Source: Deltaproteobacteria bacterium RIFCSPHIGHO2_02_FULL_40_28
Lineage (GTDB): Bacteria; UBA10199; 2-12-FULL-40-28
Direction: 5' to 3'
NCBI GenBank assembly: GCA_001798135.1
Contig: MGRJ01000027.1
Location: forward strand, 62,001-126,000
DNA: 64,000 nt
In this document: positions 31,848-37,703 of the stretch, in pieces
Layout of the letters: the number at the start of each line of letters is the position of its first letter
Numbering within the stretch: position 1 is the stretch's first letter
Position numbers and translations under genes: made by a program
The notes under the pieces: generated by a model
Seen by the model: the letters and a program-made list of their open reading frames with translations, nothing else
Database searches by the model: none
Told to the model about the DNA's origin: nothing

Positions 31848-31882
31848 CACTTCCAAACTCTTTCAAAATAATCAATCCAAAA
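31848..31882. repeat. 35-bp dispersed repeat, copy 2
   Basis: 32/35 match to 28765-28799. It covers the final codons and 3' flank of the GIY-YIG gene. Confidence 0.7.
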
Positions 31883-32123
31883 CACCTTTAACCAACCCCT
31901 CTTTTTCCTTCCTCGACAGTTTTTTAATTTGAGTTTCGCGTTTTAAAGCTTGGAATTTGTCTGGAAAAATTTCGTGATAAAGAATTTTTTTGGCGCCAAA
32001 TGATTTTGTAAATTTTCCACCAGATCCGGATTGATGTTGCTTAAAGCGTCTCTCCAAATCTGTGGTGTAACCCGTATAAAAACGCCCGTCTTTAGTTTGA
32101 AGAATATAAACAAAAAAGTTCAT
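31872..32123 (-). CDS. GIY-YIG nuclease-superfamily small protein (YhbQ/UPF0213-like)
   Basis: 83 residues: FFVYILQTKDGRFYTGYTTDLERRFKQH gives the GIY-YIG-type strand pair (VYI, YTG) with the helix Arg, followed by GGKFTKSFGAKKILYHEIF. These stand-alone GIY-YIG proteins are widespread, and the nuclease activity of many is unproven. It ends inside a 35-bp repeat also seen at 28765. The 218-bp region upstream to 32342 is extremely AT-rich and holds only promoter-like sequence. Confidence 0.9.
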   Translation of the reverse strand: MNFFVYILQTKDGRFYTGYTTDLERRFKQHQSGSGGKFTKSFGAKKILYHEIFPDKFQALKRETQIKKLSRKEKEGLVKGVLD

Positions 32124-34668: not shown

Positions 34669-34953
34669 TCCGGAGTAGCTCAGTCGGTAGAGCAAGCGGC
34701 TGTTATTGTTAGCAGCCTCTTCCAGTAATGGAGGAGTGAAAAGTGGGCTAAGTCAGGGAAACCGTAACGTCGAGTCGACGGCAATCCTGAGCTAGCATCC
34801 CTTAACGGGAGGGCAAGTGCAGAGACTCTACACCCACTATCCCGAGTGAGGCCTTCAAGGCCAAGTCGAGGGATAAAGATAAAGTCCGACTCTTGGGGAA
34901 ACTCAAGTCAGATTGTAACCGCTAGGTCGCCGGTTCGAGTCCGGCCTCCGGAG
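34669..34953 (+). tRNA. tRNA-Asn(GUU) gene interrupted by a group I intron
   Basis: Exons 34669-34703 and 34916-34953 join into a perfect cloverleaf. The acceptor TCCGGAG/CTCCGGA has seven pairs, the D stem is GCTC/GAGC, the anticodon stem AGCGG/CCGCT, and the T arm is GCCGG-TTCGAGT-CCGGC. The anticodon loop is CT-GTT-AA, and the discriminator G is usual for tRNA-Asn. The intron splits the anticodon between positions 35 and 36. CCA is not encoded (GCAT follows). A terminator follows 14 bases downstream, so it is a single-gene unit. Confidence 0.95.
34704..34915 (+). ncRNA. Group I self-splicing intron (212 nt, no ORF)
   Basis: The 5' exon end GGCTGT pairs with the internal guide GCAGCC (34712-34717), giving P1 with the required U-G wobble at the splice site. 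The adjacent guide bases GTTA (34708-34711) pair with the first 3' exon bases TAAC (34916-34919), forming P10. The intron ends in G (34915). Core elements are in order: AGTCAGGGAAACC (P-like, 34751 on), AATCCTGAGC (Q, 34783-34792), GTGCAGAGACTCTAC (R, 34817 on), AAGATAAAGTCC (S, 34876-34887), then a P9 hairpin. These match tRNA-borne introns of the cyanobacterial tRNA-Leu type. No homing endonuclease is present. Confidence 0.93.
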
Positions 34954-34967
34954 CATTTCCGTAGAAG

Positions 34968-35006
34968 AAGCCGTTTTTCCGAATAGGGAGAACGGCTTTT
35001 TCTTTT
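34968..35006 (+). terminator. Terminator of the tRNA-Asn gene
   Basis: AAGCCGTT (34968-34975) pairs with AACGGCTT (34991-34998), and TTTTTCTTTT follows. Confidence 0.85.
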
Positions 35007-35059: not shown

Positions 35060-35272
35060 TCAACCAGCGACTTGTAAAAGTGCTTCTAAAGGTTTTTTCT
35101 TGATAGAACTAATTTGCTGAACGGAAAAACCTAAAATGTTCCCATCCTTATCCACTTTCTCCATGACGAGGTCATTGTCCGTTTCTTTGAAAAACCCCGG
35201 CTTGTTTTCAAAAATGACCTCTAAAAAATCACCTTCGGCATCAAACCAAACTTTTATTGCTTTGCTTTCCAT
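35060..35272 (-). CDS. DUF2283 protein, copy 2
   Basis: 70 residues, 64 identical to the copy at 31605. Overlaps its upstream partner by 19 bp, the last gene of a six-gene minus-strand cluster. The conserved core KVWFDAEGDFLEVIFEN and NILGFSVQQIS identify DUF2283. Likely the antitoxin or partner of the preceding nuclease-like protein, by inference from the fixed pairing. Confidence 0.87.
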   Translation of the reverse strand: MESKAIKVWFDAEGDFLEVIFENKPGFFKETDNDLVMEKVDKDGNILGFSVQQISSIKKKPLEALLQVAG

Positions 35273-35568
35273 AATATTTTTCCTTTCTTAACCTTGTCGG
35301 TTAAATAAGCTGTCAACACAAACGCGTCGTCATTCCGAATCTTGACGATGACGCAGAGATATTTCCCCCCAACCATAGTTTTCGAATAATAGCGGTAATA
35401 CAAATTTGCCGTTTCATCACTCTTTGATTGTACAACAAATTCGGGGTGTAATAAAGCTTCTTGAATTGCGGCTGCCATCTCATGCATTTCTGGATGTTCC
35501 AAAATATGAGCCAGCCGCTCATCGGTTAGTCGCACAGAAATACCCTTGTAATCTTTAAGATATTTCAA
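35254..35568 (-). CDS. Small nuclease-like protein, probable toxin partner of DUF2283
   Basis: 104 residues. The layout SVRLTDERLAHILEHPEM, ALLHPEFVVQS, YYRYYSK, YLCVIVK and FVLTAYLTDKVKKGKILW resembles the barnase/EndoU/ColicinE5-D/RelE-like (PBECR) or DUF4258-type folds of small RNases. The His in HILEHPEM and the terminal Tyr/Thr/Lys cluster would be active-site candidates. Overlaps both neighbours (4 bp with 35565 gene, 19 bp with DUF2283). A truncated second copy is at 31399. Family assignment is tentative. Confidence 0.65.
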   Translation of the reverse strand: MKYLKDYKGISVRLTDERLAHILEHPEMHEMAAAIQEALLHPEFVVQSKSDETANLYYRYYSKTMVGGKYLCVIVKIRNDDAFVLTAYLTDKVKKGKILWKAKQ

Positions 35569-35945
35569 GCAATCCTCCTATTCAGGCTTTGTTCATATTC
35601 TCTTTCCCACGGATCAAAAACTAACCAGCCGCTTTCACGTGCCTGGATCACGTCAGCCAAGAATTCAGAGATGCGTCTGCAATGGCGGTCATTACTTGGT
35701 ACGTCAGTGTATTTCATGCCGATAAATTCATGAAAACAGTGGTCGTCACTAGAAAAATGGTGCTTATCAAAAAATAATTCGGGTATTTTGATCTGGTCAG
35801 CGATGAATGCCCCGTGAATAACAGTACATTCAAATGCTAAGCTGATGGCACTAAGCGACCATGAATCTGGATTTTCAAAAATGACTTGGCCACTTCTCTT
35901 AAAATTACTGGCGTCTCTGTATTGATAATTAAAAGCAATATTCAC
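35565..35945 (-). CDS. Hypothetical protein of the HNH/ImmA cluster
   Basis: 126 residues, unrecognised. It begins MNIAFNYQYRDASNFKRSG and has FENPDSWSLSAISLAFECTVIHGAFIADQI, a His-rich segment (FDKHHFSSDDHCFHEFIG) and a C-terminal helical part. The His/Asp cluster might bind metal. It lies 8 bp after the HNH gene and overlaps the nuclease-like gene by 4 bp, so it belongs to the same transcript. Confidence 0.65.
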   Translation of the reverse strand: MNIAFNYQYRDASNFKRSGQVIFENPDSWSLSAISLAFECTVIHGAFIADQIKIPELFFDKHHFSSDDHCFHEFIGMKYTDVPSNDRHCRRISEFLADVIQARESGWLVFDPWEREYEQSLNRRIA

Positions 35946-35953
35946 AAATCCTC

Positions 35954-36721
35954 CTATCCGACAAAGATGTGTTGATTGTGGTAATCCAAAAATTGAGCCT
36001 CTGGCTGAAAGCGGTTTGGTAGTTTAATTTTCTTAGAATGATATTTGCCGATAAAATCTGTAAAGGGCTCTTCGTTCGATTTCTTTAACAAAGATTTGGC
36101 AAATCGCACTTCAAAATCAGGAGTAACAGTCATCAACCCGCGATCAAAGGCACGGTCGTGAAGAGCATTAAGACATAATCCATTTTTAGGATTGATACGA
36201 TTAGACTCATCAACAGCCCAAGGCACAATATGACTTGCAACCAACAATTCAGGAACGGTCAGCCCCGTTAAACAGCACTTATTTTCATGGGCCGCTAAAA
36301 CCGATTTTCTGAAGAATTGTTGATTAACTCTCACCATGACGACACTTTCCCGTTCCTTGCCCTCCTTAGGCAAATCATCTGTTTCAATTTCAGCAATTTT
36401 CTCCACAGGTTTATGGAGCAACTCGGCTAAACATCTCTCGCTTTCAAAAGCTAATCGATCCCAATTGCTATGGAATTCTTTCCATATTTCTTCTTCGCCT
36501 TTTGAGCCATGAGCCGCGCCCTTAATATTGCGTTGTTGCAAAGCCGGATCTAATCTCGCAAAATTTGCCAGTTTCCATGAAACTGATGAAGGTGTTCTTC
36601 CAAAAGCTTTTGCAAGCTCGATAATTTCTGGATTCCGAATATGAATTCTGCCGAACGGAATCTTGCAATAGAGATTGAAAGCAATAATCAGTTCTTCTCT
36701 GGTCCATTGATTACTTTTCAT
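35954..36721 (-). CDS. HNH endonuclease
   Basis: 255 residues from ATG 36721. The C-terminal HNH_2-type domain reads CCLTG, ASHIVPWAVDESNRINPKNGLCLNALHDRAFDRGL (split: SHIVPW, then NPKNGLCLN, then LHDRAFDRGL), carrying the His, Asn and His of the metal-finger. The N-terminal half (WTREELIIAFNLYCKIPFG, FGRTPSSVSWKLANFARLD) is a putative DNA-recognition region found in many stand-alone restriction-like HNH proteins. It follows the XRE/ImmA genes in the same direction. No methyltransferase is nearby, so classic restriction-modification is unlikely. Confidence 0.87.
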   Translation of the reverse strand: MKSNQWTREELIIAFNLYCKIPFGRIHIRNPEIIELAKAFGRTPSSVSWKLANFARLDPALQQRNIKGAAHGSKGEEEIWKEFHSNWDRLAFESERCLAELLHKPVEKIAEIETDDLPKEGKERESVVMVRVNQQFFRKSVLAAHENKCCLTGLTVPELLVASHIVPWAVDESNRINPKNGLCLNALHDRAFDRGLMTVTPDFEVRFAKSLLKKSNEEPFTDFIGKYHSKKIKLPNRFQPEAQFLDYHNQHIFVG

Positions 36722-36731
36722 AAAATCTCGC

Positions 36732-37244
36732 TCACAAGATTCCAAGAACCGACAGCCTTATGCTCATGGCCTGCAGGCTGACACCAAAAAAATTGGCCAT
36801 CTCGGCAATGGTTGTTTCAGTAATCCCCCTGATCTTGTTGTCGGCAAAGTATTGCCCAACGCACTTTTCAGGCATCAAAAGTTCTGCGGCAAACTGGTTG
36901 GCTTCAATTTCGTGAAGATCTTCACCTGTCGAGGACTTGCTGTTTCTGTAAACCACCGTGAAATCATTATCCACATGCACCTGTTCCTTTTTGTGAAGCA
37001 GGTAGTGGCCCAATTCGTGGGCAATTGTGAATCTCTGCCTGTTTGAATGCTGCTCGGAATTTACAAAAATCACGGGTTTTTCCTCCTGCAACACAAGAAC
37101 ACCCGAAACTTCATCATCCAGTTTTTCAAATACGACTTTTAGACCGATTTTTTTTGCCAGACTCTCAGGCTCGGTCTTGCCGTATTCCCCAATATGGGTT
37201 TCCCAGATTTTTTTTGCCTCGTTTTTTGCCTGAATTACACTCAT
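36732..37244 (-). CDS. ImmA/IrrE-type metallopeptidase
   Basis: 170 residues with the zinc-protease motif FTIAHELGHYLLH near residue 70 and a downstream Glu in HEIEANQFAAELLMP. ImmA/IrrE proteases cleave or inactivate a paired XRE repressor upon a signal. The XRE gene lies 3 bp upstream in the same operon, which supports that pairing. Target and trigger are unknown. Confidence 0.92.
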   Translation of the reverse strand: MSVIQAKNEAKKIWETHIGEYGKTEPESLAKKIGLKVVFEKLDDEVSGVLVLQEEKPVIFVNSEQHSNRQRFTIAHELGHYLLHKKEQVHVDNDFTVVYRNSKSSTGEDLHEIEANQFAAELLMPEKCVGQYFADNKIRGITETTIAEMANFFGVSLQAMSIRLSVLGIL

Positions 37245-37247
37245 GGT

Positions 37248-37580
37248 TTATGTCCTGTTAAGGCGGTTCAGTATTCTTGAAGCTGAATGTGCCGGAAGTT
37301 TTTTGTTTAATTCCTTTTTCAGAGCATCGTCGTTTCGGTCTGCCTTCTGGGGCATTGCAATCTTTGGCAGTAACTTGAACGGATCTGTATGGCAGGCATC
37401 TGCTATATTATAAAGGGTGTGCAGAAGAATTTGCTGACGTCCGCTTTCGATATTGGCTACAGCGGCCCTTGTAAGACCAATGTTGCCTGCCAGCATTTTC
37501 TGGGTGAGGTTGGCTGATTTTCTGGCTTCCCTGATTTTATCGGCAACAGGTCTGTAGAAATTATTGTCCAATGTCCCCAT
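37248..37580 (-). CDS. XRE-family repressor paired with ImmA
   Basis: 110 residues from ATG 37580 (MGTLDNNFYRPVADKIREARKS). The helix-turn-helix is NLTQKMLAGNIGLTRAAVANIESGRQQILLHTLYNIADA, i.e. residues about 26-64. The C-terminal region is Lys-rich. It probably represses the cluster that follows, and cleavage by the adjacent ImmA protease would relieve this. A palindrome is located 44 bases upstream. Confidence 0.9.
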   Translation of the reverse strand: MGTLDNNFYRPVADKIREARKSANLTQKMLAGNIGLTRAAVANIESGRQQILLHTLYNIADACHTDPFKLLPKIAMPQKADRNDDALKKELNKKLPAHSASRILNRLNRT

Positions 37581-37623
37581 GATGTTTCTCTTGTAAACCA
37601 GCCGCCCACCAGTGTCAATATAA

Positions 37624-37644
37624 AACACACTGTAATAATGTGTT
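37624..37644 (-). promoter_or_regulatory. Candidate operator of the XRE/ImmA cluster
   Basis: AACACA-CTGTAATAA-TGTGTT: 6-base arms, 9-base spacer. It lies between the repressor gene and the divergent CD-NTase relic, in promoter position for the former. Confidence 0.45.
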
Positions 37645-37703
37645 CTTGACAATCAGAGTGTTTATAATTATCTATTTTTAGGTGTCACTAATAATATCCA
37701 AAG

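Follow-up and report, generated by a model that had tools for sequence, protein, structure and literature searches.

A group I intron in the anticodon of a bacterial tRNA-Asn(GUU) gene, and its relatives at the same site in other bacteria and in phages

The stretch of DNA that we analysed (64,000 nt, hereafter the window) carries a split tRNA-Asn(GUU) gene at positions 34669-34953 of the plus strand, interrupted between U35 and U36 by an intron of 212 nt. The gene and the feature that follows it are composed as listed here.

34669-34703 (+): tRNA-Asn 5' exon, with the acceptor 5' strand, D arm, anticodon 5' strand and C32 U33 G34 U35 (ARAGORN, joined exons)
34704-34915 (+): group I intron, 212 nt, terminal G at 34915 (RF00028, 69.9 bits; boundaries the same in relatives and in an intron-minus allele)
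34916-34953 (+): tRNA-Asn 3' exon, with U36, anticodon 3' strand, T arm, acceptor 3' strand and G73 (ARAGORN, joined exons)
34963-35003 (+): terminator-like hairpin with a U-tract (one found, against a mean of 0.9 in shuffled sequences)

The Rfam group I intron model (RF00028, Intron_gpI) matched positions 34693-34908 with 69.9 bits against a cut-off of 50 (E 1.1e-15), and at gathering scores Rfam matched nothing else in the window, supporting the group I identity given in the initial annotation. When the exons were joined at 34703 and 34916, ARAGORN returned a clean tRNA-Asn(gtt) of 74 bases by its own count, so that a tRNA check of the kind suggested in that annotation gave the expected result and the interruption it had proposed, 212 nt between anticodon positions 35 and 36, proved correct to the base. 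In the unjoined window, ARAGORN found no tRNA in its default mode, and with introns allowed it mislabelled the gene as tRNA-Thr(tgt) with a 212-base intron; genomes with such a gene may therefore look as if they had no tRNA-Asn. No endonuclease ORF is present inside the window intron, as 212 nt leaves no room for one. IC3 is the usual subgroup of bacterial tRNA introns, and the window intron likely belongs to it, judging from its host and compact form, since only the general Rfam model was used.

The downstream hairpin suggests a single-gene transcript, an inference only, as shuffled sequences give about as many such hairpins. An integrated element at the 3' end of the tRNA gene was considered and is unsupported, the 3' end sequence occurring only once in the window. 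Elsewhere in the window we observed a free-standing GIY-YIG ORF at 31872-32123 (-) and, downstream of the tRNA gene at 35254-37652 (-), a small cluster of genes for a PBECR2 nuclease, HNH_2, an IrrE-like peptidase and HTH proteins, which looks like mobile or defence cargo.

Helices P1 to P10 were assigned manually to the window sequence and counted over 19 related introns, including the exon ends, with the following result.

34698-34717 (+): P1, exon GGCUGU (34698-34703) with intron GCAGCC (34712-34717), U-G at the 5' splice site; 97.4% of cells paired in the 19 sequences
34708-34711 (+): P10 5' strand GUUA, pairing with UAAC of the 3' exon (34916-34919); GC to AU double change, in intron and exon together, in 3 of 19
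34718-34735 (+): P2 hairpin with a GUAA loop; two-sided change somewhere at 7 of 7 pairs
34743-34747 and 34833-34837 (+): strands of P3; 100% paired, two-sided changes at 3 of 5 pairs
34753-34757 with 34786-34790, and 34762-34765 with 34778-34781 (+): P4 and P5, respectively, from hand placement and pair counts
34824-34827 (GACU) and 34883-34886 (AGUC) (+): P7, the R and S elements; invariant in the 19 sequences
34838-34843 and 34870-34875 (+): strands of P8; two-sided changes at 5 of 6 pairs
34888-34909 (+): P9 with a GAAA tetraloop; two-sided changes at 6 of 8 pairs

Over the 19 sequences 93.1% of the pair cells held a pair, as compared with a mean of 79.1% after shuffling and at most 48.5% when the partners were slid; P3, P4 and P7 were 100% paired, and two-sided changes occurred at 29 of the 53 pairs. 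These comparative pair counts exclude chance. The fold of the pre-tRNA was also much more stable than that of shuffled sequences (z -4.4). The sequence thus meets the structural criteria for a group I intron, with a covariation-supported P3-P8 core and P7 pseudoknot, a U-G pair at the 5' splice site, a terminal G at the 3' end and P10; the P1 pairing (GGCTGT with GCAGCC), the P10 pairing (GTTA with TAAC), the terminal G and the core were all found as the initial annotation had read them.

The source genome (G000; 2.16 Mb in 31 contigs, estimated completeness 100%) contains 41 uninterrupted tRNA genes, none of which is a tRNA-Asn, and a search of the genome for an intact tRNA-Asn with one mismatch allowed matched only a Lys(CUU) gene. 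The window gene is thus probably the sole tRNA-Asn gene of the bacterium, with the caveat that a second one could lie in a gap between the 31 contigs despite the estimated completeness. As the split gene is the only tRNA-Asn found, decoding of AAC and AAU would depend on splicing, and the likely dependence suggested from the window alone holds up at the level of the genome. The two tRNAs with a CAT anticodon look, by inspection, like Ile2 and elongator Met, so that no uninterrupted initiator tRNA was recognised; the tRNA-fMet gene carries its own group I intron, of 661 nt and with a PDDEXK_5 endonuclease ORF (L002/L045, contig C31, about 81197-81396). Since the initiator gene is also intron-bearing, two essential tRNAs probably depend on self-splicing, although splicing itself is inferred, without RNA data. 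The 23S rRNA of this genome contains a further group I intron (L003 1191-1724, contig C24) whose 169-aa ORF resembles, judged from its sequence alone (GFVDGEGSF), a putative LAGLIDADG endonuclease.

Among 46 genomes of the same phylum, 24 had RF00028 matches, whose hosts were assigned by exon joining with site rules. Introns at the U35/U36 site of tRNA-Asn were present in 13 of these 24, in addition to a copy in G042 that is cut by a contig end. Intact tRNA-Asn genes were found in about 18 of the 46 genomes, and only in G042 did an intact and an intron-bearing gene occur together, leaving 13 of the 14 intron-bearing genomes without an intact copy. The two forms in G042 (L049/L061, contigs C131 and C9) share their downstream flank except for one base, CAAGC[G/A]TCAGAACGTATAAACAATCGTTGT. 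On this sequence alone they are best taken for putative intron-plus and intron-minus alleles of a single population, although closely related strains are possible in a bin whose contamination is estimated at 4%. The intron-minus form gives a precise empty 3' junction. Other hosts in the phylum were tRNA-Lys(CUU), with introns between U33 and C34 in six genomes (L195, L198, L206, L207, L221 and L222), and tRNA-Arg(UCU), with introns between U34 and C35 in two (L227 and L232).

A scan of GTDB genomes with a pattern for a split tRNA-Asn and P1-P4 yielded at least 117 stretches. Exon joining verified a tRNA-Asn intron at the same site in 104 of the 117 matches listed, and thus in at least 104 records, two of which (L167 and L173) belong to genomes that the phylum set above already includes. 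The 104 verified introns among the matches listed measured 184-334 nt, with a median of 244.5. Three of the 117 (L177, L182 and L184) were rejected as chance matches in coding DNA, and seven end at the edge of a contig or sequence stretch. According to the record titles, the matches listed come from more than 20 phylum-level groups, including Omnitrophota, Nitrospirota, Pseudomonadota, Acidobacteriota, Elusimicrobiota, Planctomycetota, Chloroflexota, Actinomycetota and several Patescibacteria; some of the taxon labels are surely wrong, as a 'Klebsiella pneumoniae' bin groups with Binatota. Because the pattern fixed GCAG(C/T) and TC(A/G)GGGAA, the constancy of P1 in this set is partly due to construction. 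An intact tRNA-Asn was found in only one of 50 host genomes tested, three of which carry the permuted form described below, with a pattern for intact genes that matches 102 of the 104 joined exons.

In viral contigs 62 stretches matched (L239-L300), of which about 48 were verified as tRNA-Asn introns, mostly within tRNA arrays; one contig (L300) had two further RF00028 matches nearby. A phage intron used as a query against named phages gave partial matches only. The initial annotation had regarded Asn as an uncommon host, which was wrong, since at least 104 other bacterial genome records and about 48 phage contigs have an intron at this very site; Asn appears uncommon because the papers that we found name other tRNAs. 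The source bacterium and these many unrelated bacteria and phages thus probably need a ribozyme for an essential part of protein synthesis, with splicing again inferred.

In a tree of 164 introns (203 columns, a quick method and short rows), the window intron fell in a well-supported set with copies from Omnitrophota and Melainabacteria, its nearest relative being L075 with 80% identity. The well-supported branches force at least four placements for the tRNA-Asn introns of the phylum, with the window copy nested among those of Omnitrophota, a pattern that would fit horizontal spread but rests on short rows. The tRNA-Lys introns formed a single clade adjoining a tRNA-Asn intron, which suggests that an Asn intron moved to tRNA-Lys. 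Longer tRNA-Asn introns carry endonuclease ORFs of the HNH (G019, G020 and G027), PD-(D/E)XK (phages) and LAGLIDADG (phage contig L271) families, the bacterial HNH example scoring below the Pfam cut-off.

Three tRNA-Asn loci, from Saganbacteria, WOR-1 and Margulisbacteria, present the parts in the order intron 3' half, 3' exon, 5-nt linker, 5' exon and intron 5' half.

L172 3850-4150: permuted tRNA-Asn locus, P8 pairing across the halves
L113 5770-6090: permuted tRNA-Asn locus, P8 pairing across the halves
L087 6750-7070: permuted tRNA-Asn locus, P8 pairing across the halves

In each of the three, the outer halves pair in P8 at 13 of 13 positions, and the changes seen there are compensating or to G-U. 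Joining the exons again produces tRNA-Asn(gtt), and Rfam reports two separate intron matches per locus. A sub-threshold match to YrlA, a Y RNA-like and tRNA-like family, lies over the permuted tRNA, between the two intron matches (L172 3907-4017, L113 5848-5916 and L087 6829-6897), perhaps because both have a permuted tRNA topology. Downstream of the loci there is a GIY-YIG ORF, with an HNH ORF upstream in two of the three. We rejected a tandem duplication as their origin because each locus has a single 5' exon and a single R element, as well as a single P4 element, and another pattern match (L239) was discarded as a permuted gene because it is colinear. A pattern search found no intact tRNA-Asn in these three genomes, and the permuted form was present in 3 of 74 genomes of the Margulisbacteria-type phylum. 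The three loci are apparently natural permuted intron-exon tRNA genes, their splicing being inferred; it would produce a pre-tRNA in the form of a circle, expected to be opened at the 5-nt linker by RNase P and a 3' nuclease.

Taken together, these results are best explained by a compact, ORF-less group I intron between U35 and U36 of the only tRNA-Asn gene found, with decoding dependent on splicing, as a member of a family that has probably spread horizontally (probability about 0.95). In the proposed course of events the pre-tRNA would fold so that the internal guide of the intron pairs with the 5' strand of the anticodon arm (P1, U-G at the cut), exogenous guanosine would attack after U35, and the freed U35, aligned by P10, would attack after the terminal G at 34915, the joining of the exons restoring the anticodon GUU. 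The family, widespread at one site, would have spread horizontally, probably through homing by the endonucleases of its longer members and sometimes through phages. The anatomy, its conservation and distribution, the absence of another copy from the assembly, the endonuclease ORFs of the longer members and the intron-minus allele of a relative were all observed; catalysis in the source cell, dependence on it, homing and phage transfer are inferences made without RNA data.

A decayed intron that no longer splices would leave the gene a pseudogene, with a working tRNA-Asn elsewhere, for instance in an assembly gap. The division of the genome into 31 contigs and the lack of RNA data leave room for this, but we consider it very improbable, as the core helices, splice-site U-G, P10 and terminal G are all intact, the exons make a perfect tRNA, the assembly holds no second tRNA-Asn, and an intact copy is equally missing from 13 of the 14 intron-bearing genomes of the phylum and from 49 of 50 elsewhere. 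Removal by a protein endonuclease and ligase rather than by self-splicing, as for the bulge-helix-bulge introns of archaeal tRNAs, could be proposed from the position in the anticodon loop, which is common to such introns; the length of 212 nt, a complete group I core that shows covariation and a score that clearly exceeds the cut-off of the family make it hardly tenable, and to our knowledge bacteria have no bulge-helix-bulge splicing machinery. A chimeric assembly or mis-binned contig is conceivable in a draft of 31 contigs, but the same form of the gene recurs at the same site in other genomes of the phylum and in at least 104 further records from many independent studies, so we give it almost no weight. 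We therefore retain self-splicing of a group I intron as the explanation, well supported as to the intron and inferred as to splicing; its mechanism is ordinary, while its host and breadth were unexpected.

On a broader reading, which we hold to be probable, the U35/U36 site of tRNA-Asn is a major unrecognised homing site in bacteria and phages, with many lineages decoding asparagine only by way of a ribozyme and one lineage (L172, L113 and L087) in which the ribozyme has allowed circular permutation of the gene, a natural permuted tRNA gene. Should this distribution be confirmed, many groups of uncultured bacteria would depend for translation on a ribozyme lodged in an essential tRNA, and the mobile element would spread via a site common to phages. 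The permuted relatives would parallel, in nature, the laboratory route to circular RNA, and would illustrate how an essential gene can be reordered by a ribozyme while the cell survives. We found no description of a bacterial tRNA-Asn group I intron in the open full-text literature, nor of a natural bacterial tRNA gene of permuted intron-exon form; as subscription journals lay mostly outside the search, the novelty is provisional.

Known bacterial tRNA hosts of group I introns include tRNA-Leu(UAA), tRNA-fMet, tRNA-Ile2(CAU) and tRNA-Arg (PMC3984707; PMC8450103; PMC5733544); fMet and Ile2 are the hosts given in the tRNAscan-SE 2.0 paper, Arg, Gly and Lys come in addition from a survey of cyanobacteria, and according to a 2014 review all phage introns then known were in protein genes (PMC3984707). 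The window intron resembles the bacterial tRNA introns in its size and core, in following a U of the anticodon loop, in forming P1 with the exon and in its probable role in a sole gene copy, and differs from them in its host, tRNA-Asn(GUU), and its site, U35/U36. A tRNA-fMet intron with a PD-(D/E)XK homing endonuclease, the I-Ssp6803I type, was reportedly described by Bonocora and Shub in 2001. The tRNA-fMet intron of the source genome, with its PDDEXK_5 ORF, resembles it, and some phage tRNA-Asn introns have the same endonuclease family, whereas the window intron is ORF-less and lies in another tRNA at another site. Permuted intron-exon (PIE) RNAs were engineered by Puttaraju and Been in 1992, as described in PMC4344496, and Chi et al. 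(2019), as cited in PMC8637638, found that back-splicing removes a group I intron in mushroom-coral mitochondria, a case of natural permuted splicing. The order of parts in these RNAs is the same as in the three permuted tRNA-Asn loci, which differ in being natural bacterial tRNA genes, while the window gene is colinear.
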